A stretch of DNA of 64,000 nt from Trachythela sp. YZ-2020 (lineage: Eukaryota > Cnidaria > Anthozoa > Malacalcyonacea > Clavulariidae). The notes under the pieces are model-generated. The model was not told the origin of the DNA and made no database searches. It saw only the letters and a list, made by a program, of their open reading frames with translations. A program made the position numbers and the translations under genes. Shown here in pieces: positions 840 to 60,350 of the stretch. The stretch is taken from the NCBI GenBank assembly GCA_016169945.1, contig JADLSH010000279.1:62001-126000 (forward strand), written 5' to 3'. Each line of letters begins with the position of its first letter. Position 1 is the stretch's first letter.

Positions 840-2090
840 AACATTAGTGTTGGACCAGAATATATTTGTACCTGTTGCGACCAATGGACCATTCCCCTAT
901 TAAACTGACTTTTGAACTAGGAAATTGTATCAGTACAGCTGGAAAGAGCATCCTAAGTTTAGTAAAATTGCAAAGTTTGGTTGCGAAATGTTGTAAAATG
1001 TGGAAAATATAGCGCTGTGAAGCTGTAAATTTTCTATACTTTTGTATTACGCGTGGAAAACGGTTACCACTTTTAAAAAAGTGGTAACCATTTTGCAAGT
1101 ATGTGAGCTGCCTAGTGGAGGACAACTTAGTATTCATTGGGAATGTAGTTAATGTACCTGCTGATGTTAATTCAACTGTTAGCGTTTTACCAAGACCAAT
1201 TAATGAGTCACAAACCATTCCAATTAAATTAAAGAGGTGGCTTGGTTACAAACACCATTATCAGTTTCAGAATGTTAGACCTACGAAAGTTTTAGAAGCA
1301 GCTGAATACTTGGTCCGTAACAGTGAAATATTTAAGAACGAAGGTATACAACTTGTGGATAATTATCTATCCAATTCAGTCAATAATGAGGGAGAATGGT
1401 CAGAATTTATTTCTAAAGATGCTAAAGAGACTTCAGACAATCTATCAAACAATTTGAATTCTCAATGTCAAGAAGAAGTAGGGACGCAAGCAACTAGTAA
1501 TGACACCATTGACAATGACACAGATGATGAGTGGTGCCAAGCGTCTACTGAGCAATCATCAGGTGTTATGGATACATTATTACAAGAACCAGACATAACT
1601 CAAGATGGTGATAGAATAATAAGTTTTGCGCCAGGAGAAGGAAATAGACCACTTGGTATTTTTATGGACAAAGATTCTGTCTTTCCCTACTATTTATTGT
1701 GGCAAACGTCAAGCTGACAACAAGGAAAGAACCAAGCCTGTTCATTATAGCACATTGTGTAAATGGGAATTACGAAGCAAAGATGGAAGAGTTGCCCAGT
1801 CGGTAAAGAACATTTTTTATAAATTGAAAAAACTACAAATAAGGCAAATTCAAGGAAGTGCTAGTTTATCATTACGCAAATGTAAAACAAAAGGTAAAAC
1901 ATACACAGCTGGAGATCTGAAATCGGAAAGTTCTGTGAATAAGCTAATAAATTTAGATGAAGGATTTAGATTTTTAAGAAATTTACGCGGCTCACCTCCA
2001 TATTTTGAAAGATGTAAGAAAGATCTATTTGCAATGATTAGACAGCTTGGTACAATGATTAGACAGCTGAAACTCGATGGATTCACTTGA
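840..2090 (+). pseudogene. Helitron N-terminal region (DUF6570-like), frame-broken
   Basis: Residues from about 860 read VGPEYICTCCDQ, the Cys-rich segment seen before DUF6570. The frame 1103-1717 then shows GNVVNVPADVNSTVSVLPR and KRWLGYKHHYQFQNVRPTKV, typical of DUF6570 in Helitron proteins. It ends with the FAPGEGNRPLGIFMDKDS signature. A one-base shift near 1690 moves the reading to frame 1626-2090 (FPTIYCGKRQ, FRFLRNLRGSPPYFERCKKDLFAMIRQLGT). At 2035-2070 a 14-bp word (atgattagacagct) is tandemly duplicated. It replaces the segment that normally leads into the Rep core, and the frame then shifts again. Confidence 0.75.
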
Positions 2091-2863
2091 TTAAAATTCT
2101 AGGTCGTCTTATTGATAATAAAGACTATACTGATGATGAAGTTAAACAAATGACATGGCAGAAAAAGTCTGAACTGATACAAAAAGATCCAGTTACATGT
2201 GCAAGAAATTTTGAACATATGGTGCAATTGTTTATCCACAACTTTATTAAAAGTTCATGTCACCCAATAGGAGAAGTTGTTGACTTTTTCTATCGCGTTG
2301 AATTCCAACAAAGAGGATCTACTCATATTCACGGACTATTCTGGATAAAAAATGCACCCGAGTATGGAAAAGATTCTGACGAGGATATTGTTAGGTTTGT
2401 TGATAGTTATGTTTCATGCAAAGCTGACTCCGATGATTTAACTGATCTCGTAAATTTACAAAGACATAAACACTCCAAAACGTGCAAGAAAAGAGGTAAC
2501 GCTGTTTGCAGATTTAATTTTCCGTTACCACCAATGCCAAGGACTATGATCTTAGAGCCTTTATCTGAGACTGACCTAGACGAAAATGTCGTGGATATAC
2601 TAAAGAAAGGTTTAGAACGAGTTTGTTCACTATTAGACTCTATCAAAGCCGATGAAACTATGACCTTTGTTGAATTTCTTCACAAGTTGGATCTATCGGA
2701 ACAACAATATATAAAGGCTATTAGGCTTTCTCTCAAAAATAATACTTTGTTATTGAAACGATCGCCAGCTGAGATTAGAGTCAACTGCTATAATCCACAT
2801 TTAGCTAGAAAATCCAAAGCAACTAGAAAACGTATGTTTAGCAGATTTTGTTGCATGGTATAA
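2087..2863 (+). pseudogene. Helitron Rep (HUH nuclease) domain, truncated
   Basis: The frame opens with ILGRLIDNKDYTDDEVKQMTWQKKSELIQKDPVTCAR. It contains FFYRVEFQQRGSTHIHGLFWI, where HIH is the metal-binding HUH motif of Helitron Rep nucleases (plus 2280-2345). A Cys/His segment follows (QRHKHSKTCKKRGNAVCRFNFP). After VNCYNPHLARKSKATRKRM the reading jumps straight to sequence usually found much further on. The catalytic tyrosine region (YISK-type motif) is therefore deleted. Without it the protein could not nick DNA. Confidence 0.85.
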
Positions 2864-2942
2864 CTGCAAAAGTAAGAGTAATGAGCAAAAAACACCTAAG
2901 CCAAGTTCACTTTCAACAAATGATTATCTTCCAGAAAATAAT

Positions 2943-5091
2943 TTGAATGATAATGTAGATGATCTTTCTGACGTGGAACAAACGACTGAGAATGATGCGG
3001 AATATGAAATGAAAGGAGGAAACACTTTAGTAAAGAGGAATAAGCCGAGGATAATACGGTCAGTTAGATTTAATAAAAGCAAAGCTCCTGAAAATTACTG
3101 TAGAGAGCAAATTATGCTTTACACTGCTTGGCGAAATGAAGCGACAGATCTTCTGAAAGATGTCCAAACTTACCAAGATTGGTTTGAAGTCGTCAAAGAT
3201 GTGATCGAGCAGAACAAAAAACAATACGAGAATCATACCGAAGTTCTTGATAAAGCAGTGCAAGATATTGAAAATGATGAGTTTGGTAATGTAGTTGCCC
3301 CAAATGCACAATATAGAGATGAACAAGATAGAGATGAACAAGATAAAGAAATTGGATCGAAACCGAGTGAATTGTTTGGATGTTTCGATCCAGGAAAAAA
3401 TAAACAACATACTGAATACGACTTAATAAATGATATTGGTATGTATCCAAGGACAAATGACGATGAAGGACTTGTAGTCAAGAGATTGAAAGATGCCGAT
3501 TTTAGAAAACTTGTGCAATCACTTAATGTCGAACAGAAAGAGTTATTTTACCATGTACTGAACTCTGTTAAGTCTGATAAGTTGCCATTAAGACTTTTTT
3601 TAAGTGGAGGTGCTCGTGTAGGTAAAAGTACTGTTACAAATGCTTTATATGAAGCTCTTATAAAGTATTTGAATGCTCAACCAGAAAACGATCCCGATGA
3701 TGTCAGTGTTGTGAAAGTAGCCCCAACTGGTAAAGCTGCATTTAATATAAGAGGAAATACCCTTCATTCCGCCTTTAAGATTCCTGCAAACAGAGGCTTT
3801 AACTATTGTACACTTGACAGAGATAGATTGAATACAATTAGATCTCAACTACAGCGAATGAAAGTTGTGTTTATAGATATCAATGGTAGGCAGTGGGATG
3901 TTTAATTTTCTTGACTTACGATTGCAACAAATTATGGGAACGAAAGAACCTTTTGGCGGTCTTAGCATAATAGCTGTTGGCGACTTGTTTCAACTTAAAC
4001 CAGTCTTTGATCATTGGATATTTGAAAACTCAGAAGATGGCTATACAGCATTAGCAACAAATCTCTGGCAACAATATTTTCAAATGTTTGAATTATCAGA
4101 GGTTATGAGACAAAGAGAAGACAAGGACTTTGCTGAAATTTTGAACCGTATCAGAGAAGAAAACCATACATCAGATGACATTGGAGTTTTAAAATAAAGA
4201 ATTTTAAAGCTTAGTCCTCAACATCCTGATTATCCGATTCGTTCAACTCATTTATTTAGTACGAATGACGCAGTCAATCAACATAATCATGACATTTTCA
4301 ATAAATCTACAAACGAGAAGGTTGGGATAAAAGCAATTGATATTGTACTTGGAGATTTATCTGACGAGTTAAAAGAAAGGCTTAAGAAGCAAATACCAGA
4401 CGATCCTTCCAAAACCATGGGCTTATACTCAGTTTGTTCCATATTAAAAGATGCAATATACGACCTCACGACAAACGTGTCGGTTGTTGATGGTATGACT
4501 AACGGCGCTGAGTGTATAATTAAGAAAGTTGATTACCGTGTACCAGGTTCATCAAGACCAAGTATTATTTGGGTTTTATTTCAAGAAGAACATATTGGGA
4601 AAGATCATCGCAAAGAATATTCTCATCTTTACAATGAAAATATCGATAGACATTGGGTTCCAATTTTAGAGGTCACAAGACAGTTCAGAAGGCACAAAAT
4701 GCAAGTTCTTCGAAGGCAATTTCCTTTAAGGCCATCGGCAGCTAAAACTATTCACCGTTGTCAAGGAGATACATTAAATAAAGCAGTTGTTGACCTTCCA
4801 TCATGTAAACGAGAACATATGCACTATGTTGCACTTAGCAGACTAGGAAGCATCTCGGGACTACATATTCTGAACTTATATGAAAATAAAATAGCTGTGA
4901 GCAATTTTGCCAATTACATTTTGCTGGTGCGGCAACAAGAATATATACAAAAATTATTTACTGGACTATGGATAACACTATATGGATTAAATCATATGGA
5001 TTATACCTGTGTCTTAGCAATACCTTATCAACTATGCGCCACCAAGTATCAAGAAACTATACTAACGAGTAAAATATATACAATACAATCA
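2943..5091 (+). pseudogene. Helitron Pif1-like helicase, frame-broken
   Basis: Superfamily 1B helicase motifs appear in order over three frames. Walker A is LSGGARVGKST (3600-3635), with Arg where Gly is usual. Motif Ia is APTGKAAFNIRGNTLHSAF. Walker B (VFID) is at 3870-3880. Motif III is GGLSIIAVGDLFQLKPV, followed by LSEVMRQREDKDFAEILNRI. The C-terminal motifs are PSAAKTIHRCQGDT and HMHYVALSR (4730-4850). A 2-nt loss at about 3885 splits Walker B from its MVGSGMF continuation. An in-frame TAA at 4195-4197 interrupts GVLK/RILKL. Otherwise the frame is readable to about 4943. The rest of the open frame has no recognisable motif. Confidence 0.88.
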
Positions 5092-7281: not shown

Positions 7282-8006
7282 CGAACCCCTGCAAATGTCG
7301 TGGAATGTAAAGGATGTAAGGAGCAAAGTTTATCATTTCCCAAGGGTCCAAACAGTTAGGTAACATAATTTCTCTGGAGTCCTGGGGCATGTTGACATGC
7401 CAAATGGGTGCCACCTTCAAAAGTCAGTCACCAAGGCAATATAATGTCCGAAAGGCGAAACAGGTTATCATTCCGTATTTTATATATGCTGCAGCTTTAA
7501 TATAATAATAGACATGGTGGTCAAAGGAATATAATAGCTCAAACGAATTAACATATTCAATGTATTAATTTAAAAATGTTCATTCAAATCGCACATCAGT
7601 CAAATTGAAATCTAGAATGGCAAGCATACAACTGTCTCACTGCAAAATGGACCTTTATACCGTTTACAGTATTGCATTTCCCCCAGTGGTCTCGTTTTCA
7701 TGTGGGTTGTATTTCGTGCACATGAGGGTTTGTAAATTTAGTTGGGCTAAATATCGAAGAAAATCCTAACTATTCGTGCACGAAACATGGGTATATAAAT
7801 ATATTAACCTGCACGTGCGCCTGCCTAAATAAAAACGTAAAATGGAAACGAGGCAATTGGGGAAAATGCAATGAACGGTAAGGTGTATTAGTATACAAGT
7901 ATATAGAGCTCTTGCTTCACTCGCCAATATGAGCGCTGTGGCGGTGACGTAATTCGCTAATTTCAATTCACGTCGTGTCAAGAAACTTATAAAACAGCAA
8001 ATGAAA

Positions 8007-8500: not shown

Positions 8501-11500
8501 TCATTTCTCAGCTGCCTTTGCAGCGCCGCGCTTTCTTCGTTTCCTTACAGACAGTAAATGTTCAATCCACATTCTAACCTCTTCAGTCTTTAACAATGTT
8601 TTCCGTGCCAAATTCTCAGTTTCCTCCTCTGAGACCGTTTCCCTATCTCCCAAGAATTCTCTAATCATAACTGATGGAGGCTGGATTCTACTGTCTTTTC
8701 CTTTAATATTTACCCATTTGATATTCTCCTCTGGACTTAAGAAATGCCAATTGCATTTGTTGGAACACCGTTCACAGTCGGATTCCCACGACTTAATGCC
8801 GTCTGGAATAGGTACTGGAAGGCAGTGCTGTAAAAGTTACTTTTTTTTTGGAACTAGTTACAGTTACAGTTACATGTTCAAAAAAGGAACTAGTTACTGG
8901 TAAAAGTTACATGAAAAAAAACGTAACTAGTTACCGTTACAAAGTTACTTCAAAATTTTTGTAACTAGTTACAAAGTTACATTCCCCCAGTTTACTATTT
9001 AGTATTTACAATAACCGCAGGGGTATGGAGAAGAGCGGATTTCTAGCTTGTGACACTGGTACTGTCTTTAAATGAAGGAACAAGTCAACAACTACTCAAT
9101 AAACCAGCTACTCAATAGCCCATGAAAAATTAACAATTATGTTGAAAAAATCTTAAAATAGTGAAGATTTATACAATTTACAAAAATAATGCGCCCGTGA
9201 CCACTGACCAGTGGTCAGCAGATTAGCGTTGATAATTTGGCCAAGACGTTATGTTGCCTTGCATGAAATATTGAAATGTTCAATACTTCGATAGTTCGAT
9301 TACAGTACGTAATGAATTGACAATTTGAATTTGTCAAATTTGACTGTAGATTAATTAATTATTAAATGGTAGAAGTTAGCCTGAAAATGTAACGGAAAAG
9401 TAACTTTAACGCTGATAACATATGTAACGCGTTATCGTTCCATTTTTAGCAAAAAAGTAACTAGTTACAGTTACCTCCTTGCAAAATGTAACTAGTTACC
9501 CCTATAGTTACTCAAAAAAGTAACGATTACTTGTAATTTCGTTACTTGTAACGAAGTTACTTACAGCACTGCTGGAAGGTACGAAAGTGGGGGTCCACCC
9601 TCAAAACCATTTGAGTTCGACATCTGGTCTACCTTTACTGCAAACAGGATGTGGGCTTTTTTTTTTATAACATGGTAGCAACATGAAAATATAATTTTTC
9701 CGGAACGTTCTTTACAACGTAATTGTTCCTAACTGTCCATACTTTCTGGAAATATTTGAATTCGTCCGGATAATTTTTTTCAAGTAGCAGTTTCTTCTTC
9801 TTTGTACCTTGCAAGAATGTGATAAGGTTCTCTCTTCGTTGACAATCTTTTTTGGACACTGTATTGCTTGCACCTTTAACCAGTTTTATTGGATTACCTG
9901 CACATTGGCTTCCAGAGACTGAACGTATGTATACATCTGTCGCTGCATCAAGATTTTGTTTTAGTTTCTCCTCGTCGATGCCGTTATCATTTTGGTTTGA
10001 TCCATGTATTGTGGAAGGTATATAGAGATTTGAGTTCAGGAGTTCTGGAGTTCAACCCGATTAAGATAACTACCGCCACTGAATCTGGAAGTAACAATGT
10101 TACATTGCTTACCATTTTTTAAATGGTGTTCTGTCCACACAAATTGAACTTTGTTGTGTGATGGGCCCTCGTCCGTAGCTCCATCAACATGAATGCAATC
10201 AATTGGTTTATCTTTAAGTGTCGTTTGTAGCTCAAGTAGGTCATAAAGCATAAAGTCTGCTGCATGTTGATTTGGATGCTTTTCAAATAGCTTTGATGGT
10301 TTGACTACGCCGAAACAAACCTCTGGCGTGGTATCAGTCCCAATGAACATATACGAAGATGTTTGAAGTACGGACGAGTATTTGTTTACAAAATCAGTTC
10401 TGGTTGTTAATTCCGGCTTTTCTGCTTCACTCAAAATCTTATGTTGTTTATGCGTGTACATTGTATCCAGACGGAATCCAGCCGCATCATCCCTGTTCAA
10501 CACTACTTTGTCACAACCGTCCTTTAACTGTAGAAAATCCAAGCCTTTGTATAATGCGCAACTCCAGTGAGCGTCGACGTTTAAACGTACACTGAAACCC
10601 TTCCTTGCTCTTCGTGACAAAAGTTTGGCTGCCCCCCAATATCTCTTCAATGAAAGCCTTCACTTGTTACGAACCATACATAACTGCACAATGGTGCCAT
10701 AACCAAATTTTGTGTTATACTTTTTCTCAAGATATCTTTTTATGCGGTTGAATGTCAACTTTGGACCTTTTCTTGTGTTGCCAGTAAACGTGAGCACACC
10801 CGTTATTCGCCAAGAGTCTGCTCCTATTCTGCATTCTTTTGCGAATTCTTCAATATCTTTCCCGATGTGTGGGAATTTGGAAAGGGTTTTGCTGACAAAT
10901 TTCGGTACTCGTCGTTTCAGGAGTGATTTCTTTGCCACTTCTTTAGCCAGGAGTCGTTTCTTGAGTGTTTGAAAAGCGGCAGTTCTTTGTTTAATTTTTT
11001 TCTTCAATTTCTCATTTTTTCTTCATTGCTCACATCAATTTTAACCCAGTCTTCTGGATTGTCACTTTCAGAATCTGTTACTGCAAGCCCATCAGACACT
11101 CGTTCACTTGCAAGTACGCTCTCGTATGCTTCTCTTGACTCTATCACCAGTTTTAAATGGTCAGAGATAAGTTTGTTTTTGCTTAATAGGTCATAAAGAA
11201 CTTAATTGTTAAATGGTTTAACGTTTTTGTGTTAACATTATTAAAAGATACCGCCAACTCAGCCATAAAGGACACCCAGTTAAATTTGTTCTCCAGTAGA
11301 ACTTGCAACAAACTATCATCTGAGGGTAAGTCTTCTTTGCCAGGTTTGAAGTCGTTCTCATATGGGCCCACATCACTGTCACCACCGTCCGATGAATCAG
11401 ACATTTCCGAAGTGTCAGAATACGCATCTGAATCTGAAAAAACAATGTCAGAGGATTCTAGTGTTGCCTTCATTTTCGAATTCACTATGTCGTCCACATG

Positions 11501-14500
11501 TTTTCTTATAGAAGAATATTCTTCGACAGCTTCTGCAACTTCTCTTCTCAATTCGTGTACATTACTGATTCCAAATACAGCCTTTGCCTGAACACCAGAT
11601 AATCCCGCCGATGCGGCAGCTTTCACAAGTTTTCGGTCAGCTTCACTGCTAGCTAAGTCGCAATTTTTCACATGGAATGAGGTTCTCGATAATTTGCGTA
11701 AGTTTACGATAGTCCGCCTGAGCAGTATATTCTAAAACATACAAAATTCTGTTCACTTTTAAAACAACAACTGGCAGTTGCATTAGTCGTCGGATTGCTT
11801 GATCCGTTTTGTATGACGTGGATTTGAAGTGATTACAAAATAATGTTCGTAACTTAACTATTTGCTTACTGTCGACTTCTTTAGCAACATTTATGAGAGG
11901 CAGACATATTTCACACTTTAATGGTAAAGAAGAATTAGAAGATACATGATGATGTTCGCAGTATAGCTTTCTGGCAGCTTGAAACTTTGATAAAGACATA
12001 TCTTTAATGTGGGAAACATAGGCCCCGCCGCAACTAACATTATGTGTTAAATTTTGTCCAACATATTTTTTGTATGTCTCAAAAGTGCTATTGTCACCAT
12101 AGTCATATTCTAAATGGCAATTAAAACAAGAACAGGAACCTGAACAAGAACAGTTATCAGTCATAAAAAAGTAGAATTTTCTACTTCATCTGCAAGGGGA
12201 GCACTGTAGTCTGTGCTACATGTAGCTTCATCTGCTTTGTCATCATTTACTTCGATGCTTGGATTAGATTCTTCCTTTCTTTCAGTTGACATTTCCAGAA
12301 GTGATTTCCTTTGCAAATTTCCATCACCCTCACTTTCCGAATCTGACAATACAAGAATTTCAGTATCCTCTCCACTATCATCACCGGAACTTTCTTTTGA
12401 TACCAACCATGATTTCAGTGGAACCAGCCTTGATGATGCTGTTGATGACACCTTCCGTTGCTTTGAAGACCTTTTCTTCTTCTTCTTCAACGAATTTGAC
12501 CTAACTATGGCTTTCTTCAACTTATTAATTTCTTTGACTTTAATTTGCTTTTCTTCTGTGGTCTCCAAGATTCTTTTGTTCATTTCCACAGCTTCCAGAT
12601 ATCTTTCAGAATTTGTATACTTTAACTTTTGCTTTTGAAGGAGAGCAATGGTCTCAGCATAGGATTGAATAGCACTGGATATTCTTTTCATTTCCTCGTC
12701 TCTGCAATCCAATTGTACATATTTCCTCTTTGTTTTTGACTCGTCAGATGACTGCAGGGATCCAAACACTGCAGACCGAGAGCTCTTTTTCTTATAGTTC
12801 AACCCCTGCTCATTAACTTTCTTCCGTGCTTTGTCTAACAACACCCCACACGTTTTCAGTAGTGCAATATTACTTCTACACAACTCTAAGCTTGCTTTGT
12901 TGACTGCTTTTTGGTAATCTGTTAAGACCATGGAAGGATTTTTGTAACCAAAAATCTTACTTTCATTTTCAAGCATCTCACTGGATATTGAAATGTTACT
13001 GCTAGTTGTTTCTGACTCATTGAATCTTTCCATCTAAGAATTAAGATAAAGAAGAAAATTGGGAAAGATCTACCGGTCTGTTCGACAGTAATTTTGTCTA
13101 GTTTCCAAGTGAGGATGTTTATTTAATAACTGTGCCCTTACCTGTGAAAGCTGTGGTCCAATGCAAAGAGCACCTTCCTTGACTACCAATGTTGCTTGCC
13201 CAGTTTTAGAACGATGTTCATCATCTATGATAATTAAATATTGACACATAAATATTACAAGTTTAATATTGACAGTTCTCCATCCAGAAGCGTTTTGCAG
13301 TGCACAAATAAGTAAAGTTTCACTTACAGTAGGTTTATTGCATTTCTGTTGTTATTGCATTCATTTGCTACGTGTACTCTAATATTTTTTAATATTCTTT
13401 TTTCAAACCTCATACCTGCATAAGGACTCTTGACTTGAGCCGCCTGCTAAGAAATATAACAAGATAACATATTAATATTTTGAATAATTAGTATTACAGT
13501 ATATATTATGAATACACATTTTTACAAAATGCAGATACTTAGGTTTCATATAATCTCATGAATATAATCCTACAGTATATAAATAGATCACAGAAGTTGA
13601 TGGTATATTTATTAATGTGTTGCCTCCTACATGTGTTGCCACAGATTGTCTGTACACTACCCAAGAACTGGCAGTATAGATTTCTAAATATTTGTATCCC
13701 TTCTAAGACAATGTTTTTATAAAACCATTTTTAGGAAGATAAGAATTATACATAGCATCTGATGATGGTTTGTATAAAAATTATATTGAGCTAAATCATC
13801 AAAATTGAAGTATATTTTAATAATATGCTATATTGCAATATATTACTAAGCTATAAGTATAAAGATTAAATTGAATTACTGTTATTACAATGGAAGTGTT
13901 CATAAAATATTACATCAATTCATTACATAAAGTTGATTAATTCATACAGTATGCTCAACTTCCTGTGTGTGTGAATTTATAACGAATGGATTTCATGTCG
14001 GTGAGTGATTGACCAATTAGGAGCAAGTATGCCAGTAAACAAAAAAATTGAGCAACTTTTGAGCAAATGAATTGTCAGAATTGATCAACTTTATGTAATT
14101 ATTTTATGAACACTTCCATTTCAAAAACAGTACTAAATACAGATATATTATCATAAATACTACTGTCTACAATCTACATTATATGAACAATAATATTTTT
14201 CTATAAATTTAGGCAAATTAAATAAATTATAGGTCAATAAAATAATATATACCTTCTCTTGATTCTGCCCCCTACAAGCAGTCTCCACCACAAGGAAAAA
14301 TTTGTCCTTGTCTTTTATCATGTCTATCATATCTACATCCACATTTTCCTCCCATATGTTATCATAATGCTGAACATAGAATCGCTGTTCATTGCCGGCA
14401 ATGTCATTGGAGACACTAGCATCAATGTTGAATTGCCCTTTGGCTTGGTCTATAAGCTCTTCGATTGAGCAACAGTTTACCACAAATGGCTTCTTCCGTT

Positions 14501-23635: not shown

Positions 23636-24195
23636 TTACACATGTTGCGGCCAGTCATATTGATTCCACATTCCGTAATAGAAATCAAATGTTATGTCTT
23701 CTTTCTCCAAGAAATAAGTTATACCAAATTGTTTCTCCGTGTTTATAACAGCTTCTACTTTCCCCTTCCCTTTTGCCGATCTTTTGAGAAAATATTTTTT
23801 TAGGATTTTGCAGTCCATGAACTCGCAAAAAAACATTCCTAACCCTGGCATCATTGGAGAAAACAAACGTAATACGTTTCTTTGCTGACAGACAAATAAC
23901 CCCATACGAGCTTTGTGCAATGATTTGTTGCATGATATTGAATAGATCTATGCTGAGGTACTCGGAAAATGAAACTCTCCAAGGATTTCGTACTCCACAT
24001 CTAGCAATCATTCTTCTCATAAATGTTTTATATCAACGCTGTGCAATGCGGGAAAGCATGGGAAATGCTTCGACAACTGTGAATTTCTGTCCTTCGCCGT
24101 ATTTTCCCAAATATTTCTTAGCTACCAAAGGAATAAGTCTCTTATTGCTTATGAAACTGCTTATGAAACAAAAAATGTTTTGCCTTACTTTATGA
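23636..24195 (-). pseudogene. Possible decayed protein exon, family unknown
   Basis: On the minus strand two overlapping frames read as one protein broken by a shift near 23880. They include CGVRNPWRVSFSEYLSIDLF ... IAQSSYG and then KARMGLFVCQQRNVLRLF ... DITFDFYYGMWNQYDW. Composition looks protein-like, but no family was recognised. Could be a DNA-transposon fragment. Confidence 0.3.
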
Positions 24196-24338
24196 TTTTG
24201 GGGTCGGAGAATTTGAATTTGATATCAAAATCTACAAAATCTAACTATTTAATACATTTTTTCTGTTCTAAACACCATGTTTTCTACAAATAATATGGTC
24301 TGAGGACTGGGACCAAGTAAATGTAGCGCGGCTGAAGT

Positions 24339-24359
24339 GTGACGTAAAGAGCAGGGCAC
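24339..24359 (+). repeat. 21-bp inverted repeat, left arm
   Basis: gtgacgtaaagagcagggca followed by c. Exact reverse complement of 32508-32528, 8.15 kb away. It lies 45 bp upstream of the P2X7C-like start codon. Confidence 0.9.
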
Positions 24360-24404
24360 ACGATTGTTTGTTTATAGTGCTTTATACACTGCGTATATGC
24401 AAAT

Positions 24405-25854
24405 ATGTCTTCAAGCGCTAGTAACGGGAGTTTTTCTTCGGATACAAATTATTCAAGTGATGAGGTATACAGCTGCCAGTTTCGCCTATATGAAGATGAA
24501 CCACTTGTTCACATTGGCGAAAATTTAGTTGATCAAAACGACGATGAAGACCCGAAAGAGGAGTGCAATGGAGATGGTTTGACGCCAGTCGTTTTGGAAG
24601 CTAGATTCGATCGAAAAATAAAGTTTGATTCTTGATAAGTCATTTTGTAATCTAGTATGAAACTCATACGTTGAATATCGCATTTTTTAAAACCATATTT
24701 GAACTTTCACTCGGGTGTACATGTGGAAAATGTTCAGTAGAAAAGCTTGTTGGAGCGCTAGAATTCAGATGCTGTCGCGAGGTTGGCGAGGCTTTGGGCA
24801 AGCTCACTTTTGATGGAAGCATCGAACAAATTTTGTGTGTAACTCTGCACAAAGATTACGAGGCATTAACCAACGAGACTGTCCTCTCTCAAGTTGGTCC
24901 TATGTTGAAAGATCGTCAGGGAAGGAGCTATCGTTGCCGTTCAGGAACTCCTTGCAAAGAGTAAGTAAATATGTTTGAATATGCTCAATTTGCTCATACC
25001 TGAAATATTTGGAATTTGCCCTAGCTTACTACAGTATACTGAAGTATTCAAGTCATGCCTATATTTTAAATTCTGTGATACGAAAATACACATAGAAATC
25101 TTACTATAAAACTTTAGTAAGGTATATAAACATCACATCAAATTGTTCGCTCTATAAGAACTGCTATGACTTGAAAATATTGTTCAATTGCTGTATTAAA
25201 ATCTAAATACTGTAAATTACAGATCCAAACACAATTTTAAAGAATGTTTGGCCAATAAATTAAATATATTACAGGCTGTTGCATGTTACATATATGGGAC
25301 TATTAATATGAGCCAGCCCAGCCCGACTTGTGTTAGTGCTATGAAGCCTATGCTCCCACCTTATACTGTATATAAGTATATTGTTGAGAAATATTCGACA
25401 TAGCCTATATGAGACATGTAAGAAATGCAAGGATTTCCAGCCTGGCTTGCTAGGCTGCCCCCTCCTAACAATGCATACAGTATATTCCATACTTTATTCC
25501 ATCTAAAACCTCCAAGCTAATAAGAAAATAATTTCTGGCTAGCTTGCCCAGCAAAACAAGCAAGCTGAGCTCGTATGAAAAGCACCTATGTTATAAACTT
25601 CCCCACTAATGGAGTACGAGGCCGGGTGTCTTGTATAGTTTTCATGAAATTTGATTGTAATATAAAGTGCTTGTTTGTTGTACCATTTTAGGTATATCCG
25701 TGCTGTCAGATACAGATGGCTTGCTCGATGGCTTTTTGGATACATGGGTCCAGAAAAAACTAGGCCATTACCAGCATGCATTTATCACAATCTAAGAGGG
25801 AGATACAATACTCGTAACTCCAAAGGATATTTAAATTCTGAGGAACGAAACTAG
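24405..25854 (+). pseudogene. P2X7 C-terminal-domain-like zinc protein
   Basis: The first frame is acidic/Ser-rich (MSSSASNGSFSSDTNYSSDE ... VYSCQFRLYEDEP). From 24706 the frame reads CTCGKCSVEKL ... FRCCREVGEAL ... ILCVTLHKDYEAL. It splices at 24960 to 25692 in phase (PCKEYIRAVRYRWLARWLFG) and ends PLPACIYHNLRGRYNT. The C-x-C-x2-C, CC-E, C-x2-H and Y-R/W-rich then P-x-C-x3-IR-like pattern is that of the cytoplasmic zinc-binding domain of P2X7 (P2RX7_C), which exists as free-standing proteins in invertebrates. No transmembrane segment is present, so this is not a receptor. A TGA at about 24633 separates the acidic leader from the zinc domain with no good intron between, so one mutation is likely. 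Function in the element is unknown. Confidence 0.7.
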
Positions 25855-28800
25855 TGAGGGAAATAATGTGCCTATTAATTAATCACAACTTCCTCTTTTA
25901 TGTCCTTTTCGTGGTTTTCCACATTTACGGCACACTGGTGTTTTCCTTTGTGTTGAAGTTGGTGCAGGTGGTCGATTAAGGGATTCTTGGAAAGTTTCTT
26001 GTTCATACTCTTCCGCTTTTTATATTTCTCAATTGCCTCTTCCTTCCCCAGCCGGTTTGGAAATTGGGTATTGAGGGGTTTTGGTGTCAATGACTAATAT
26101 GTGGATGCAATTTTTGTCAGCTCCGCATGATCGATGGTAAACAACACATCGCCAATACATTTGACATACTCTAAATAGTAGCAAGTTAGAAATGTTGGTT
26201 ATTAAACTTGTTTATGAACAATAAACGTATTGTAAGCTTGCAGTTTATTGTGTGTTCTTATTATGAAAAACAGTCAATTTTAGTAATAAAGTAAATTGTG
26301 TTGCAGTTAAGTGAGTTAAAAGTTAACAATATTTACCATATGTTGGTGGCTTTTTAACTTCCCTCACAATTTCCTCTCCAAGTTTATACTTTGGGTAACA
26401 TACATTGGTATAAACCTCTCCATCTCTTGACTGCTGGCTTTCACGCCTTAGATTCTCGTTGAAGTGTAGTGCAGCGAGAGCGGTCCTAAAATAGTATAGA
26501 AAGTAGTACTTCAATTATATTTGTTCCAAATTGCAGCCCAAATTGCAATCCATCCATTATCCAAATACTACAAATGGAGTTCAGTAATTGTCAGGTGCTA
26601 CAGTTTATCAAAACAGTCCTGAAAAATTTAATGTTGAGTTAACCAATGTGTATATAGTACCTGCAATATGTTCCCATCCATGAGAAACATAACATCTTGG
26701 GGTGCCAGTGATTCAAGGTGGCATGGAAGCCTTCAAGGCAGCTGGTTTGGGTATCTGAGGACAAGTTCTTTATTCCAGATTCCAACCTTGTATTTCCCAA
26801 AATGACCAGCATTTTGTTAAAGGCTGGTGTTCCTGAAATAAATCAAACTAACAATAAAGGTATAAAAACATGGAACTGTTTTCTTAAAACAGCATTTGAC
26901 ATACATTTCCCTGTTGAATAAAAATTTAGCATTGGTCAAATTGAGGGTGAAAGTTTCAGAAACATTATTAACCTTGGGAATGAGTCATTCCCAAAAAAAT
27001 CCACACTCCCCTTATGATGGAATTTTATGCCGTCTGGAGGAGGAAGGAAAACTACTTCTGAACATAGTAAAATGTGCTAGAACATCCCAAGGGGGGGGGG
27101 TTAACTCCTAATTTCTTCTGTGGGGAAGGTTACATTAGTGAGCTTTTGCCCCTGTTTGCATGGGACTGGATGAATTAGGAACTGTGGTCAAATGTGCACA
27201 ATTTCACCTTTCACATGGATTGAATGAAGCCAGACTAATTCAAGCACAACTAACCATACACTCCCCTGTGTCAACAAATAAAGTTGGATGAATTTTTGTA
27301 CAGTTTCAACTTTATGCATTCTTATGTGAATATAGCCTTAGTTTCAAATCTGTGCATGCATATATTTACCAATTTTAATCCAATCACGAGGTGTTTCCAG
27401 TTCTCCATGGGCACAATCTGGGAATAATTGGTTAGGATGTCCTGCATGTCTGTTGGCAACATGGTACATGAATGATTTCCATTTTGCCAAAATCATCTGT
27501 CCAAATCCTTCTTTTGTCGAGGTTGCACACCAGTATATATGGTTTCGGACTCCCTTTATCCATTGCAAGATAGCCTCACATCCCTTTTCTTTACCAGCCT
27601 TCATCATTTTTTTTGTTACCGTACGTGCAACATGCCAGATGTAAAAAAAGTGCTTGGTGCCAATTTGTGTTTCCCTCACCCACTTAGGGATCCCAGCATG
27701 GCGATCTGAAATAAATTTCTTAATTGAAATACCAGCCGTTTGAAGGTATGCAAAGCAACGTTTGCCCCCTTCCAATTCCATTTGGTTGCTTCCACCTGGT
27801 TCATTAGACTAAACTAGGGATCCAAGGATTGTGCAAAGTTTCAAAGAGCCATACGTTTTGGGGAAAATGGGAGTGAAAATGGGGGGAAATTCAGTAAGAA
27901 AAACGAAAGATTAATATGGAAGCACTGAAGTACTCTGCGGCGAAGACATATTTTGGTTACAATTCCATGACACGCACAAAATAGGGTTAGGTTTAGGGAT
28001 TGGGTCGGGATTGGGGTCAAGATCAAAGAGAAATATTCGTGATTGCGTGTCATGGAATTATAACCCATATTTTTGTTGAATTTTGGATCCTGTAACACCA
28101 TAATTTACAAGCAATGCAAGTAATGTTTCAGGAAAATCTCACCTTGATCCTACAGATAAAGAATATTTCACAACTCGTCGTGGGAAGTGTATGCGTATTT
28201 ATTGCTGACGTAAATAGATGAGTCATGCATGGAATTATAGCTAGTACATGTAGCAGTGTCAAGATTGTCAAGTTCTCATGACATTTGTTTTTCGAAGGCC
28301 TATTTTTAACTTCGCTTTTGAAAATCGTGTTTTTAACGCCAAGCGTAAACATACGCAGGCAAATTATGCCCCATTTATAATTACTTGTAACAAGAGACGG
28401 ACCCTACCAAGCTTTCCAAGAAAATGATCATTGAAACTTTGCTTTTAGTAAAAAAGATTTTATTTGTAATCTTGAGAAAGGACAAAGTTATCAAGGCAAT
28501 GAATGTTGTGGATGAATAGTTATAGTAAATATTACGTTGTTGTTGTGTTGAAAGAAAAACATTTGTTAATCGTTATGTTTATGACTTATACTTAGTATTA
28601 AGTTATAGAAGGACAAAGAGTAAAGAGTAGTTACATGTATGATATAGTTTAGTTTTGTAAATATTACAGGGTTCATATTATTATTAAATGTTGTGTTGAA
28701 AATTTTGTTTACAGTAATATGACTACTGTATATGTTTGTAATCTATAATTCCGGACGGTCACTTCAAATTTTGCACATGGGCGGCTATTATATATTAGCC

Positions 28801-29980
28801 CAAGTTAAGTAAGTCCAAGTCGGAAATCTGAATTGTTTGGTGAAATAGTATAAAAACTAAGGGTGTATAGTCAGCCACTGCCTTCAACTAGAACACCGAC
28901 ACAATTTTTAAGGGGATTTTTTTCAAAGCGGAAATACTGTGTAACTTTCGTTTTCCTAACAATGTCAATGACAATGCATATATAAACAGTACTGTTGTTT
29001 ACGTTCACACTTCAAACGTAATTATTTATATCACAGAAAATCAGAATTTACATTTATTTTAAAATATTATATATCCCAATACAATTATATCCCATCAATT
29101 CAAGGTATACTGTAAAGTTTAAATTAACACGACTATTGGGACTGCAGGCTTTGCAGCACGTTTATATGATTCCGTTTTATACCATGGAGGTTATATATCC
29201 AGCCATCGACTTGTACAAGTTTATTGACATTGCCACATTGGCATTGCCCCTATAGTTCATAAGGCTATAGTTGTATTTGAAATAATATAGCCTTTAAACT
29301 GCTACCACGTTTACCTTCCTTATCATTTATATAATCTGCAAACTCGCATTTGAGATACAGTCTTTAAATATTTTGTCATAATCATATTCTCGAAAGCAAA
29401 TGTCAAATAATATAAATAATGTTCTTGTCGCTAGACTCGCTACACGGCACGTGTACGAATCTCGCAATCACCTCGCGGCCACGCACTTAATAGCGCACGT
29501 GCATTTGAGATTACACAAAAAATCGGGTGTTCCGGGGGAAAGTCGCCAATTTAATGTCAATTCAACATCTTCAGCAAATGTTTCAAGTTCAATATAAAGA
29601 CTCTAAATCAGCATAGTTTATGTAAACTCGCCATAAGATCAAGAGAATATTTAAAGAAAAATGTGAAGCCCTGTCTTGAAGCACTAAATCACTAAATGTT
29701 AATGAAATTTAAAAAGAACATAAATTGTATGCACCCCCCGGAAAGTTTACACTATGATGTATCTATCTATCTCTCGTGTGAATTTTCGCCCCTCATCACA
29801 ATACTGCAAAGTTAAAAACTTTGCACTAAAAAGGGAAATGGACAACTACATTATACATTACTGTATATATTTTGTGTATAACCCTATTGTGTATATACCA
29901 AGCAATATATTTGGCCATTTCTTCTATATACCACTTGGCTATGGTGTAGATGAATTTAAGTAGTAGCATACAAACGGTGA

Positions 29981-30115
29981 ACAAAGCAAGTGATACATTG
30001 TATGGCCCAAAGTGTATGAGTTTTACAGGGATTACATCACATGTAACATACACTGTGTTGGTTAGATGTAATACCTGTGAAACTCGTACACTTTAGGCCA
30101 TACCACTTGCTTTGT
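29981..30115. repeat. 135-bp near-perfect hairpin in a transposase intron
   Basis: The arm beginning acaaagcaagtg (29981) is mirrored by cacttgctttgt ending at 30115. Pairing continues through the GGCC-AAAGTGTA and CAGG-ATTACATC blocks. It lies just downstream of the exon 4 donor, so it is intronic. It looks like a small foldback MITE. Confidence 0.75.
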
Positions 30116-30856
30116 ACTACACAGGAGAAATACCTCACCTGCAACATTTCAAAATGAACAATTTTGTCAACCGGTGAGCAAAACATTGAATAAGTTCCAT
30201 ACTTTGCTGAATGTCCCATGGAATCAAAGCAGCCATCACCACACCACACAATGTCTTCTAATTGTTTTACTTTTGTTACTAGTTTAAGTTATGCGCATGT
30301 GCGAGTTCAGACTGCCATTTTGCAAACTTTTTTCAAAAATAGTTTTGCACTTATTTTATAACACTCAAAACAAGATAAAGTATTTAGAGGACAAATCTAC
30401 AAGAAGAAAAACAGTTGAAAGACCGAAAAAGGAGCGTTTTAAACGGGTAAGTGTCTATTTTGCATACTTGCTTTCTGATTTATAGCATACAGAGTATGTT
30501 TGAATTTGAAAATGCGTACTAGATCATTCTGTGGTCAATATAACATTGATTGATCTTAAAAGTATTTTAGTATTGATTCAAATACGTTATAGAAAAATAA
30601 AAAAACGTATTAAATCTCAAAAACTTCATTTCAAAAGCAAGTGCCGAAGCATAAAAATACTGCTTGAAAAGCAGTTGGAAGTTTTATGAAAATTTCGAAA
30701 CGTTTTGTGAACGTCTAATGTTGATTGTTACAGTAAATCAAAGCTAAAATAGTACATAATCGCATACCCACTTTATATAGCTGGGCAATTGAGATAATGA
30801 TAATTTTATAGTTAAAAGTAAAAAATATCAATATTTTTTACAAATTAAAATAAAAG

Positions 30857-30995
30857 AAATATACAGTGTTGTGTGTTACCATGGTTACAGTGGTCTATTC
30901 GGTACTTCATGTTATAATAACGTTTGGGGAGTAAATTGTTTGGTTCAAATGGCCTAGGCGAGGGGATTCTGCATGCATGTATTTCTAGTTCAAGC
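30857..30995 (+). repeat. Dispersed repeat, copy 1
   Basis: Sequence from atatacagtgttgtgtgttacc to gattctgcatgcatgtatttc is repeated in the same orientation at 53851-53975 with about 10-15 percent difference by eye. It is non-coding and lies in a transposase intron. Confidence 0.8.
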
Positions 30996-32507
30996 TATAA
31001 TTTAGAAAAATTAAAAGGATATTGTAAATTGTATTTGTAGCTTCTTTTTCTCAACCCCTCACTGATTATATTTATCGTAGCCCCTCCTCACTGATTATAT
31101 TTATTTTTCTGGAAGTAAGTGTTATAGATACTATACATCATAGTGTTGAACCTCTAATGCCCCCTCTTTACTTAAATACTGTTGCTAGTCAGAGCAAATT
31201 CTGTATTATGAGGAGACTACAAAACGTGGAATACTTAGTGCCCATTGCTTTAAAAGGCAGACATTAGCTTAGCACATTACTGTTTTACCTTATGTTGTTA
31301 CGTGACCGTTTCTCTGCTTCATCATCATCGGATTCTGACTCAGAACTTTCATATCCATCCAATTCACACGACCATTCAGGATCATGATTGATTTCGCCCA
31401 CTTCACCATCATTGTCATGGTCACTTTCACTCTCATTGTCATGGTCACTTTCACTCTCATCTCCACTTCCAAACTCCATAGACAGATAGACTCATCACTG
31501 AGAATTCCATCTTCCTCAATATCAGATTCCTAAAATAAGAATTTAATTAAATTCCTCTTGTAAGTCAGTAGTCCATAGCAAAACATTATGTCACTTACAG
31601 AGGCTTGCTCATTCAGGTTCATCATGATGTCCACTTTCTTCCTCAACCTCTCCAATTTTCTTTTTAAATTCCTCTTATCTTTCATGTGCTCTTGGCACTT
31701 TTTGCATGTACTGGAAGGCATCAAGAGAGTTGTTTCTTCAGCATTACACTCTGCAGCATCATGTGATATTGATTCAGTGGTGGTTAGATCTTGGACAACT
31801 GTTATGTTGGTGGGAACTTGGTCTGCAGTGTCGAGTTCTTGATCAACTGAAGTTGATGCCTTGGTTGCTTTTGTGTTGTCAGAGCGGGGTTTTTTTTAGG
31901 TGGTTCTGGCATGTAATCCTTGAGCGCATCTCGCTTCAACTAAAAACAATGTGTGAAATAAGTTAAATATTTTCATGTCTCAGCCATGGGCCATACTATG
32001 GCTGTGATATAATTCAAACAAATCTACAGTGAATCCCAATTTAATTAATCCTAAATGCAATTTTTCATACACACGTAAAGTAAAAATTTAATCTAATTTA
32101 CATGGATCTTGGATATTAACCCGCGAAACTATTACCCAAGAAGTTTAATAGCAATGTGATATTCATAAAATATGTAACACTTACAAGTCGTTATAGAGCC
32201 TCGTTCCAGTGTTATCAAATGTTTCCAACGCTGTGGCAAAACGCTTCGAAATGTGCTGAGCACAAGTAAGTCCTACTTGAGTACATGGCTGGATTGAAAT
32301 CCACTCTGTGCCGTCTAACAAATTTCACCCACTGCTGTCTTACTGAGCTATCTGTAGGAAAGCGATGCATACTTATGCCAGGGGTATCTCCATTATTTGT
32401 ACAAGACCTTTGACTTGGCCCACCAGCAACACAAAAGACTTTACAATGCCTTTTTTTGCTTATACTTGAAGCTTGTTTCTCCATTCTTTGTCTGAGATTG
32501 TCGAAGC

Positions 32508-32528
32508 GTGCCCTGCTCTTTACGTCAC
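32508..32528 (-). repeat. 21-bp inverted repeat, right arm
   Basis: Exact reverse complement of 24339-24359. It lies 23 bp upstream of the THAP start codon, so it is probably part of the terminal repeat and promoter region. Confidence 0.9.
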
Positions 32529-33826
32529 TGGAAGTAATTTAGCAACACTTGGCCACGCGCAATTAAGTCCTACTATTTATCAGAACTATGCCATGTTTAA
32601 CCCTCGATAACTTTTTTCTGATTCAATTTGAAATCATCTCGTTTTCAGAATCATTTTCTACGACTTTAAAAGTACCAGAGGCACTTTTATACTTTTTCGT
32701 TTCATAGGCACTTTAACTCGTCTATGGCATCCTTTGTCGACCAAAAGTCTAAACCAGATTTTATTAGATCGTTTTTTGACGAATCTAAACCTCTCATAAG
32801 TACAGCTTCGAACTTGTCTTGTCGCAACTGTTCAGCCATGTTTAAGAAACACTTCACGTTTAGCCTGCGAGCGGGCAAGCCCGGCCCGCATCAGAGGTTA
32901 CTAATGAGGCCGCTGCTCATCCAGATCGGGGTAACAAAATGGCCGGAAATCAATTAGAAAATCCCCAGCGTGTTAAATGGGTGTTGTAATGGTAAACAGT
33001 TAAATAGAAAAATACAACAAAACATAATGAAACTACATATTGTACATTTTGTCGGGTGAATGTAAAGTCATTAAGGAATGGTCATTTCCTATTCTGTGAA
33101 TTTACCTTGACTGTATTTTTTTGGTGTGTGGGGGGGGGGGGTGACAATTTCCAGCATGAAAATTTCATGGCCCCTATTGATGACAGATGCACTTTTATCT
33201 GAAATGGCTGCCCTGAATTTTAAATAAAGATTTTCATTCATTCATATCAACTCTGTCAATTATGTCTTGTTGATTTGCTCTTAATTGATTTGAGGTAAAG
33301 CAATATGTTTGATCTTTACCTGTTTTCACACATTTAGCTGCCTTTCCTTTCTGAAACACATTCTCTTAGAAAGAGTAATTTGTCACCATAGGGATGAACC
33401 AACATCTGTTTTACTAAATGTAAGGAAATAGATTACTGACCACATTTAGTACTGAACTACTGAAAGACTTTGTCAGCGTCAAATCAAACAATCATGCCAG
33501 AAATCTTTCAATATTTATAGTCTGCTGGGTTAAATGTACTGAACATATGTTTATTTAATAAAGCTAGTTTTGACAATTGTGAGGCAAGAGTCTCGGTGTA
33601 GCATTAGAATTTTTCTTGGATAGTGAAATTAACATCAGGAGTTAACTAAGGGAATAACCATTATTATTTGGAAGGGAGGATGATAAATCCTTAAAATGTT
33701 TGCAAAAGCAAAAAAAGTCCAAATAAATTATTTGCACATACGAAAAGTTAAAAAATAAGTGGTGGATATATAGCCATAGGTGTTTCCAGTTTTAATATCG
33801 TAAGTACAACAATGTGTCTATATAGT
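32529..33826. other. No gene supported
   Basis: AT-rich sequence with a G-run at about 33129-33141. A short tail-like (ATTC)n at about 33232-33244, following a segment reading CCTGAATTTTAAATAAAG, could be a retroposon 3' end. The open frame 32724-32957 has no recognisable motif. Confidence 0.35.
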
Positions 33827-51984: not shown

Positions 51985-53130
51985 TTTGGGTTATAATTCC
52001 ATGACATAAAAGCCCTTGCCGCCTTTTTGCATGTCGTTGACCCTTCTGCTGAGACTCCTAGCAATAAGTTGCGTAAGGTTGACGAGTTTGTTGCATCTTT
52101 CAAAGAAAGATGTAGACTTTTGTATCAACCTGATCAGAAATTGGCTGTGGATGAGCGGATGGTAAGGTCGAAGCATAGGTCAGGTATCAGGCAGTTCATG
52201 AAAGATAAGCCTGCTAAGTTTGGATTGAAACTCTGGGTTTTAGCTGACAGTGCTAATGGCTATACTGTTGATTTTAATATTTACATAGGTAAGGACGTGG
52301 CAAGAAATACGTCTGAGCATGGTACCGGTTATGATATCGTTATGGAGTTGATGGAATCTTACATGGATCAGGGGTATCAGTTGTATCTAGATAATTTTTA
52401 TCCTTCCCCTCAGCTAGTGCATGATCTCGACATGAGAAAAACGCCCTCTGTTGGTACCGTAAAAATTAATAGAAAATAATTCCCCAAGTGTTTGAAGAAT
52501 GTGAAAGCGTGGGTAAAGACGGCTAAGCAAGGTGATGTGCGGTGGGTAAGGCATTCGCAGTTTTTAGCATTGCAATGGATTGACAATAAACCTGTTTTTT
52601 CAACGCTTCATTCTGCAAATGCTCAGGTAAGTTGTAAGAGGAGAGTGAAGAAGGATGGAAAGTTTGAGAGAGTTAGTGTTCCTCAGCCCCTTCCTATCCA
52701 CAAGTATAACCAGTTCATGAATGGCATGGATAGGTCTGATCAACTCCTCGCATCCCATAATGTAAGTAAGAAATGTTATAGGTGGTGGAAGACTTTGTTC
52801 TTTCACCTAGTAGATATTGCAGTAGTTAACAGTTTTCTTCTTTTTCAGAGTTATCGAGCCAAGAATGCAGATATCGAAGATTTGGACCAATATTCTGTAG
52901 TAGACTTTAGGGAGGAGTTTAGTTAGGCAGATTTGTAGTTTGCCAGCATGTGATGACCCACCAGCATATGAGAAAAGCGCTCCTGGTGAAAGTCAGTTTG
53001 AGACTGTTCATATGCCGGTAGCAGATGATGGCACTAGGCATAATTGTGTTGTGTGTTATAAGGAAGGTAGAGGTCAGAGGAAGGTTATAAATCAAATTTG
53101 CCAGAGAAAATCTGTGACATATTTTAACAT
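51985..53130 (+). pseudogene. piggyBac transposase pseudogene, 5'-truncated
   Basis: The frame picks up in the middle of the catalytic domain (LRKVDEFVASF, LAVDERMVRSKHRSGIRQFM, FGLKLWVLADSANGYTVDFN). It continues through LYLDNFYPSPQLVHDL to VGTVKINRK. A TAA at 52477-52479 interrupts, then the same frame reads RHSQFLALQWIDNKPVFSTL, YNQFMNGMDRSDQLLASHNV and CYRWWKTLFFHLVDIAVVNS. The Asp residues in AVDERM, LDNFY and WIDNKP correspond to the piggyBac catalytic triad. After a one-base shift near 52921 a C-terminal Cys-rich tail begins (RHNCVVCYKEGRGQRK). The N-terminal half is missing and no TTAA-flanked ends were identified. Confidence 0.9.
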
Positions 53131-57630: not shown

Positions 57631-60350
57631 GGACTATTTTTTGTCCAGAGGCTCATTAAAGAAGAAAGTAAACAGCTAACAGACAGAAAAAAACAGAATA
57701 TTTGTCCTGGTATTTATGCTGCTTATTGGAAGGACTTACGTTTGAACAGTACATCAAAGCAAAATCAATTAAGTGTTCTGCGAGTCATACTCGTGATTGT
57801 AAAGTCTGTCCACCAATGATAAAAGCTGGTACAATTATACTGGAAAATAAGTTTATAAAGTTGCCGGTTGTATGGAGCATGGTATTTCAAACTGGAGCAT
57901 ATGACTGTGAAAAAGCACAAAGACGGTTTCTCCAGATGCCCGTTGTTTCGGTTAATGTTAGCGGTAAAGTCTATTTGTGTGAAAAGAAGATCAATATGGA
58001 TTTTGGTTTTCTCAAAGACGAAATTGCCTGCAAATTATCTGAAGTGTCGCAACCTATTATGTCTTTTCAAGAGTTCGACAAAATCTTATATACAAGTGAA
58101 AATGATGCTGAGCGTAACAGATTAAAGCATACTATTGCATCTGCCTATAATCTTAGTCGACGTCAAGCAGCATCATCGTTTAAGATTTCCAGAATGAAAG
58201 AACGGGCAACCAGCATCACTGAAGCGTTTAAGAAAGCCAAAGAAATCTACGATATGCACAATTACTTAGCAGAAATTGAACAGCGTTCATTCTTAATTTC
58301 TCAAGGCATTAATTCTGAATCCTACCTGAAAGACTCGGGCTCGGAAAGTGAAAGTGAAGAAGAGAGTGAAGATGAGGAAGACTTTACGGCATGCAAGAGT
58401 TGTGTAAAACAGGGAATTGTTCAACCTGACGAAAACTCAAATGCTACAATACAAAGGAATATCTTATCAGACCATCATTTCGACTTGAATTTTGCATTGA
58501 AAGTTCTCAGAGATGTACAATTTAATTGGTTTGCTTTTGTAGCGATTTTAAAATCACAATTTGAAGCGCAGGGTATTGAAGATATGTTGGATCAGTATGT
58601 CACTCATGTAACATCGCAACTTCCAAATTGTGGACTTACTAAAGAGGAAATGTGTTTAGCCAACCAATCACGCATGGTCTACCTTGATGTTATACAAGCG
58701 AAGCAAGTTATCAGTGAGGGCATAACTTGTGAATCAAGCGATGATGAAGTTGATGCGGAGATTGCGACTACACAATACAATGATGATATCAGTGAAGATA
58801 ATATACGAAAGGAAATCATGCGAATTAAGGACAGAGCAAGAAAAAGGGCAAAAGTAGATATTGCGAAGGAACGCTTCCTTAGAAGAAAGACAACCAAGTC
58901 TGCAAAGTCAGTGGAAAGGTTATACCCTGATATTGGCGAGGTGATGGAGGCAATTGCAGAGAGTTGTGATGTTGGAGCAGATAAATGGAGAAGAACTGGT
59001 GTGTACACATTTTCAGGAGATCCCAAAAAGGTTAAGCGTCTTACATTTAAGAGGCTACAGCAGAAGCTTACCGACCATTATGGATGGCATTTTAGTTATG
59101 GAACAGTCGTACAGTTATGTGTAGCCAGAAACAAGAAAAGGTCATCCAGCCAACGGTATAAGGGTTTGGCAAAGATAAAGTACCAACGTGCAAGCAAAGG
59201 ATTTTCGCTAAAATTGAATCCAGATACAAAGTGGAGTAGATCGTTGTACAAGAATCTTGACAAGCTCCAATGTGATGGTGGCCACTCTGTGTTACTAAAC
59301 CGGGATGATCAGGCCGGATTTCGTTTGGACACCACATTTACACACAAAAGTCATGGTCAACTTGGAGTAAATCAAACAGTTACTACCCATACTGATTTTG
59401 TGAATAAGCACCCCTGCCAACTCCAAACCACTTGTTACAATTTTAGTAAAACAACAACAACAAGTGAAGTGTGTTCTGGCGTTGTCAAGACATCAGTAAT
59501 TCATGACAAGTCACCATCTCAGCATGCCGCAGACCTTCAAATGCTGTTACAAAAGGACTTGCTGAAGCCTGTCTTCTTCAAGTCAACACAGTTTCAAACA
59601 AATGTACCAAAGGATATACACTATATTAGAGTAGATGGCACATCGGATGAGGGGCCAAGTCATGTAGAGGTTCAATTCTTGTGGACTGAGTTGCATGTTT
59701 CAACACCAACCAAAGTAACATTGGTTAGCACAAGATGCAGTGGCGACAGCTTCCTAAATCGAGTGGAGCTCCAGAATGGATGCCTTGCAAGAGGACATTC
59801 AAACTTATTTATTCCCTCGACACTGCTTGGCGCCCCATGCAATGATGACGGTTCATTTAGTACTGAAAAGCACAAAGCGAACATGTCCAAAGCTGTTGAA
59901 CAGTATATTGCCAGAGTAGATAGGACATCATGTATGAAGACCACAATTAAGCTTTACAGAGGGGCCGAGAACCATGAATATGTGAATCGAAGAGAACAAC
60001 TTCTGATTTTCTTGCAGGGCAGTAATAAGCAAAGAAATATGTTAAAGAAGAAGCATCCAACGCTTTACAAGTATTTTTCAGAGATATGGAAAGTCCGATG
60101 CAACCACATGGATAGAAGTCTTCCTTCTAACTACATATTTATGTTGAAATGCTGTGGAATGGTTCACTGTCCTCATCCTTTATGTCAAGGTATTTAACTT
60201 GTTTTTCAGTTTCCCATTTTTATACAGTTTGTATAGCATTCCTTTGTTAAATTTAAGGTAATATTTTTATTTCTAGTAACCTATCTAAACATTTCCATCA
60301 TTTGATCATACTGTTTTCTTATTTTCGTCTTCTTGAAAATATTTATTAAG

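Follow-up and report, generated by a model that had tools for sequence, protein, structure and literature searches.

A decayed, probably Kol0-type Kolobok element with convergent transposase and KolX genes in Trachythela sp. YZ-2020

The window is a 64,000-nucleotide stretch of the Trachythela sp. YZ-2020 genome (contig JADLSH010000279.1, positions 62,001 to 126,000, forward strand). Between inverted repeats it holds two convergent genes, a THAP-DDE transposase and a free-standing relative of the P2X7 cytoplasmic ballast, here called KolX. The closest described system is the Kol0 kind of Kolobok transposon (Kojima and Bao, 2022, PMC9587614). In the parts of that paper drawn on here, Kol0 elements have a DDE transposase, TTAA borders, 5'-RR...YY-3' termini and a second gene, KolX, with the P2X7 ballast fold; P2X7 itself is derived from a P2X4-like gene fused with KolX. 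The pairing of KolX with a Kolobok transposase is thus already published. Nothing in those parts excludes the window element from the group; a convergent gene order across many families and a subterminal repeat with a CRE (cAMP response element)-like core were not found in them.

Three further systems were compared, each from part of its source. The ballast domain of P2X7 and of nanor (PMC7016195) has the same fold and cysteine pattern as KolX, but in P2X7, an ion channel, it is fused to the end of the protein, whereas KolX is free-standing and encoded by the element. Rump et al. (2020, PMC7016195) found the P2X7 ballast domain across animals; the string 'transpos' occurs 0 times in the main text. 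ProtoRAG of lancelets (PMC7481187) likewise has a transposase and a partner arranged tail to tail, and its inverted-repeat ends have promoter activity and contain a site for the host factor YY1; this site influences recombination as well. It differs in its RAG-type transposase, 5-bp target duplication and partner, and is a separate family. In the P element and THAP9 (PMC7776569), the THAP domain binds internal sites near the terminal inverted repeat (TIR) and subterminal inverted repeats of 11-12 bp are present; these elements have 8-bp target duplications and a P-type catalytic domain with a GTP-binding insertion, and the portion of the source used mentions no KolX-like partner.

Copies, termini and class of the element

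With a probability of about 0.86, the window element was read as one decayed copy of a cut-and-paste DNA transposon that is present in many copies and belongs to the KolX-bearing Kol0 kind of the Kolobok superfamily. The genome (578 Mb, 396 contigs) was searched with the 21-bp repeat found near both genes, allowing up to 3 mismatches. 17 + 19 sites were obtained, against 2 + 1 for a reversed-pattern control, and 11 inward-facing pairs lay 5.3-8.5 kb apart, with further single ends. The initial annotation had held the layout too regular for coincidence and had expected the repeat at both ends of other copies; both expectations were borne out. An alignment of 30 of the 36 sites, each taken with 1.5 kb of flanking sequence in both directions, separated two subfamilies, A (window-like) and B. 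Homology between copies extends ~185 bp beyond the outer side of the 21-mer, as far as a border of TTAA followed by AGTGCYTATGAAACGAAA. Of the 15 left and 15 right ends, 13 each had this border; it was not found at the window left end, L020, L013 and L014. The repeat, first taken to bound the element, does lie inside both ends but is subterminal, with TTAA and the TIR further out.

Of 20 regions fetched, 11 had a perfect TTAA-TIR at both ends, and all 11 carried exons of both genes in convergent order. Exons of both genes were held by 17 of the 20; L045 and L047 had transposase exons only and L054 had KolX only. L036 and L037 have common flanks and represent one insertion, duplicated. L045 (C254:66600-76500) showed two near-matching THAP-side ends in the same direction, 6.87 kb apart; it has no TIR, and its THAP exon is limited to the first 36 residues.

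Class was assigned using the Kolobok criteria given in parts of Kojima and Bao (2022, PMC9587614) and PMC6004289. TTAA, predicted beforehand for a Kolobok element, was found outside both TIRs in the 11 perfect-ended regions and is intact on the right only in the window copy. The TIR starts with AG after TTAA at both ends, in agreement with RR...YY termini. The THAP domain matched PF05485 (E 5.8e-12, 46.7 bits against a cut-off of 23.9). The DDE triad, the C/DxxH motif and an H2CH zinc finger between the second D and the E were present in 34-37 of 37 aligned homologues and are visible in L035; the window copy has YxxH and a partly missing exon. The second gene, with the P2X7 ballast fold, corresponds to the Kol0 KolX. 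Two other classes were rejected. For piggyBac, which also uses TTAA, the transposase gave no PF13843 match in scans at E<=0.1 and E<=0.01, although another window open reading frame did match. For the P element, TTAA borders were found in place of an 8-bp target duplication.

Linkage of the two genes was examined genome-wide with single exons as queries, scoring the best 150 of 472, 252 and 494 candidates respectively; the copies are related by descent, so that the counts are not independent events. One catalytic exon found 155 places, of which 150 were listed and 139 remained after merging; KolX exon 2 gave at least 150 matches and the THAP exon at least 150 (148 after merging). Within this scope, 53 of the 150 listed KolX matches had a catalytic exon within 10 kb (0.72 expected), all 53 convergent; 13 of these were A or B copies and 40 belonged to other families. 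The THAP exon lay within 10 kb of KolX in 70 of 150 (0.77 expected), 69 of them convergent. The co-occurrence suggested at the outset therefore extends well beyond the window.

Among the listed KolX matches, 88 of 150 were near a catalytic and/or THAP exon and 62 near neither; the latter do not demonstrate lone genes, because only the best 150 candidates were scored. Likewise, 86 of the catalytic-exon places (139 after merging) lacked a KolX match within 10 kb, either through the limit of 150 scored candidates or because their lineages have no KolX. Nine THAP-KolX pairs were just 15-97 bp apart, as expected for internally deleted copies. Such derivatives include C123:4202224-4202726, C130:3855324-3855820, C379:344351-344847 and C250:348829-349318, where convergent THAP and KolX exons lie 42-71 bp apart, some with open frames across the matched stretches. 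Same-direction KolX matches were repeated along two contigs (C346:345937, 353782 and 362722; C345:175844, 245438 and 332398) with no transposase exon found within 10 kb among the best 150; they could be tandem copies or genes kept by the host.

The gene pair and the window copy

Features of the window element are listed by position.

24149..32716: Kolobok (Kol0-type) element, decayed copy, ~8.57 kb; limits set by inter-copy homology (left ~24149-24154, right 32716)
24149..24180 (+): left terminus with a degenerate TIR; this copy has lost TTAA; from an alignment of the 15 left ends
24339..24359 (+): left 21-bp subterminal inverted repeat, CRE-like core, exact GTGACGTAAAGAGCAGGGCAC; 45 bp before the KolX ATG
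24405..24631 (+): KolX exon 1, acidic; open frame kept in other copies, exon end inferred, predicted disordered in a homologue
24711..24960 (+): KolX exon 2, CxCGxC ... RCC, zinc-ligand region; from copy comparison, junctions inferred and altered in this copy
25691..25854 (+): KolX exon 3, RAVxYRW ... LPAC and stop; P2RX7_C E 0.069, below cut-off, kept in copies
25879..26019 (-): last transposase exon and stop, CxxC...C, putatively zinc-knuckle-like
26326..26514 (-): transposase exon with RTALAALHFNEN; from frame and copy comparison
26642..26842 (-): transposase exon with catalytic E (LEGFHA); homologue alignment
27347..27808 (-): transposase exon carrying SDRH (second D), the DxxH motif (YxxH here) and the H2CH zinc finger; homologue alignment
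27821..29827: stretch unmatched in sister copy L035
30136..30288 (-): transposase exon with first catalytic D (GDG..DSMGHSAKYG); 5' part missing relative to L035
30284..30980: stretch replacing part of a transposase exon relative to L035
31530..31895 (-): transposase linker exon, putatively coiled-coil-like
32218..32484 (-): transposase THAP exon; PF05485
32508..32528 (-): right 21-bp subterminal inverted repeat, exact GTGACGTAAAGAGCAGGGCAC; 23 bp before the transposase ATG
32695..32716 (-): right TIR with TTAA, TTAAAGTGCCTATGAAACGAAA (inward reading), C308:94695-94716; from end alignment and TIR-pattern search

The geometry described in the initial annotation was reproduced exactly: the inverted repeat is perfect, the KolX and transposase ATGs are at 24405 (+) and 32484 (-), and the genes converge with stops (25852-25854 and 25879-25881) 24 bp apart, tail to tail.

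The window copy is decayed and, at ~8.57 kb, longer than its sister copy L035 (~6.4 kb). Its left end is degenerate, and no left TIR at this locus was among the genome TIR-pattern matches listed. Two stretches are unmatched in L035, of which 27821..29827 is probably a later insertion. The transposase catalytic exon is partly missing, the DxxH motif has changed from DIWH to YIWH, and the inferred KolX splice junctions are altered. A copy on C79 has the same left boundary and the same flanks on both sides, so the two copies probably go back to a single insertion and a subsequent duplication.

A P2RX7_C Pfam match was obtained for 14 of 20 aligned KolX proteins, and structure comparison of one modelled homologue returned the P2X7 cytoplasmic ballast fold. 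KolX is, by the Pfam matches of most homologues and the predicted fold of one, related to the P2X7 cytoplasmic ballast. The earlier proposal that this zinc domain is a transposon accessory protein gains support from these matches, the structure comparison and the co-occurrence; the proposal itself is already in PMC9587614, as far as that paper is cited here. Weighing against the assignment as a whole, the structural Z score is modest and some KolX Pfam scores fall below threshold; the probability was lowered from 0.87 to 0.86 for these reasons.

Selection was compared between one A copy (L035) and one B representative (L039, with one exon from L042). Synonymous positions differ by 0.75-0.77 (saturated), and non-synonymous differences (pN) were 0.20 for KolX (215 codons) and 0.18 for the transposase (548 codons). 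Judged from these substitutions, KolX and transposase were both under constraint during spread of the element.

The subterminal repeat

In left ends the repeat lies 133-188 bp from TTAA in A (most 176-188 bp) and 161-177 bp in B; in right ends it lies at 187-202 bp. Between A and B, 19-20 of 21 positions of the repeat and 24-25 of 26 of the TIR are identical, against 46-49% (left) and 63-64% (right) of the interval between them. The same interval is 41-45% identical between the left and right ends of one element. These interval identities come from four and two comparisons.

Related repeats were found in other families. F1 has TGTGACGTCACTGGTTGTAC at both ends in two copies, F3 has GTGACGTCATTRGTTGTGTA at both ends (189 bp from the terminus on the KolX side), and F2 and F5 have a perfect 10-bp core (CGTGACGTCA and TGTGACGTCA) with a partly matching tail. 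Distances from the terminus in these families were 161-198 bp, measured from the TIR for the F5 THAP end, which has no TTAA. In F4 and F7, each represented by a single end, the CRE-like site lies at 177 and 175 bp. The two F6 pieces contained neither a TIR nor a common repeat; the KolX-side piece had one isolated GTGACGTAT, and the F6 ends may fall beyond the sequence fetched. Of the 7 families or subfamilies for which both ends were examined, 6 thus carry a repeat (A, B, F1, F2, F3 and F5), and F6 showed none. It adjoins both gene starts in A and B and the transposase start in other families. GTGACGTMA occurs three times in the window, once in each repeat and once at 7944, against 0.41 occurrences expected in 64 kb. 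At both F5 ends (L061/L062), CCGCCATTTTG stands just outside the CRE-like core and fits the YY1 motif given in the part of PMC7481187 used.

The TIR pattern was found at 192 + 203 genome sites (control 0 + 0), with some pairs <1 kb apart. Among the matches listed, 14 short TIR pairs of 461-799 bp, too short for both genes, were identified by pattern positions. An F3-type repeat (<=2 mismatches) stood at one or both ends of 10 of the 14, 142-150 bp from TTAA; by ends the count is 11 of 28, as a single pair carries it twice. With 3 mismatches the F3 pattern gave 248 + 274 genome sites and 64 + 59 control matches; since control matches are numerous, the argument from short derivatives rests on position and orientation rather than count.

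Alternative readings, mechanism and context

That two unrelated genes and an inverted repeat met by chance is refuted. No point in its favour was found, and it conflicts with the convergence of 53/53 and 69/70 pairs and with 36 repeat sites against 3 control matches. The function of the repeat leaves more room. It could be a mere duplicated promoter, a host CRE/bZIP site with start-site sequence at both genes and no role in transposition, as its placement 45 and 23 bp from the window ATGs would suggest. In other families the putative transposase-side ATG follows the core by 28-58 bp, some with earlier ATGs, and the constant part is CRE-like in every positive family. Against this, the similar spacing from TTAA (mostly 161-202 bp) and the same-orientation repeat in 10 of the 14 short derivatives fit a cis role in movement better, though descent could explain both. 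A promoter without further function is possible, at somewhat less than even odds.

KolX may instead be dispensable for movement and act on the host, for example in silencing, DNA repair or signalling, being kept for element survival. No description of KolX function was found in the sources used. KolX shows no obvious catalytic residues, its N-terminal part is acidic and, in a homologue, predicted to be disordered, and its pN is about as low as that of the transposase. Linkage and convergent order in many families are compatible alike with this and with a role in transposition. We regard host action as rather unlikely.

For the Kol0-type element preferred here, the following mechanism is proposed. 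The transposase would recognise the ends through its THAP domain, cut the element out and reinsert it at TTAA. KolX would be an accessory needed for spread, acting as a cofactor folded around zinc and not as a nuclease. The subterminal repeat would serve as promoter of both genes, its constant CRE part being recognised by a CREB/ATF-type bZIP factor of the host, and also as a transposition site, its family-specific part perhaps read by the THAP domain. Such a double role would couple expression of the partners and guard both ends against loss. A more specific version is speculative and, as a whole, unlikely: binding of the transposase to this composite site would shut off both genes when the ends are paired, activity would be cAMP- or stress-responsive and self-limiting, and the layout would be convergent with that of ProtoRAG.

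Other repeats were observed in the window. Helitron-like remains at 2063-5091 (+) comprise Helitron_like_N (E 8.6e-14) and PIF1 helicase (E 6.6e-12) matches in adjacent frames; a third frame, 4198-5091, had no Pfam match. A piggyBac-type transposase fragment lies at 51997-52476 (+) (DDE_Tnp_1_7, E 9.1e-38). Long reading frames occur at 57672-60194 (+) and 10039-13033 (-); the frames tested (57672-60194, 10039-10659 and 12164-13033) had no Pfam match at E<=0.001. Two of them have LNRDDxAGFRLDT- and VDGxxDEGPSH-like phrases in common by eye, and they are possibly another repeat family.

Genome-wide co-occurrence and structure comparison independently back the P2X7 ballast domain as a free-standing transposon partner, and with it the published proposal that the cytoplasmic tail of an inflammation receptor came from mobile DNA. 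Invertebrate genes annotated as 'P2X7 intracellular domain' may be transposon genes. The common subterminal site gives a testable handle on how transposons with two such genes are activated and recognised, and on how KolX acts.
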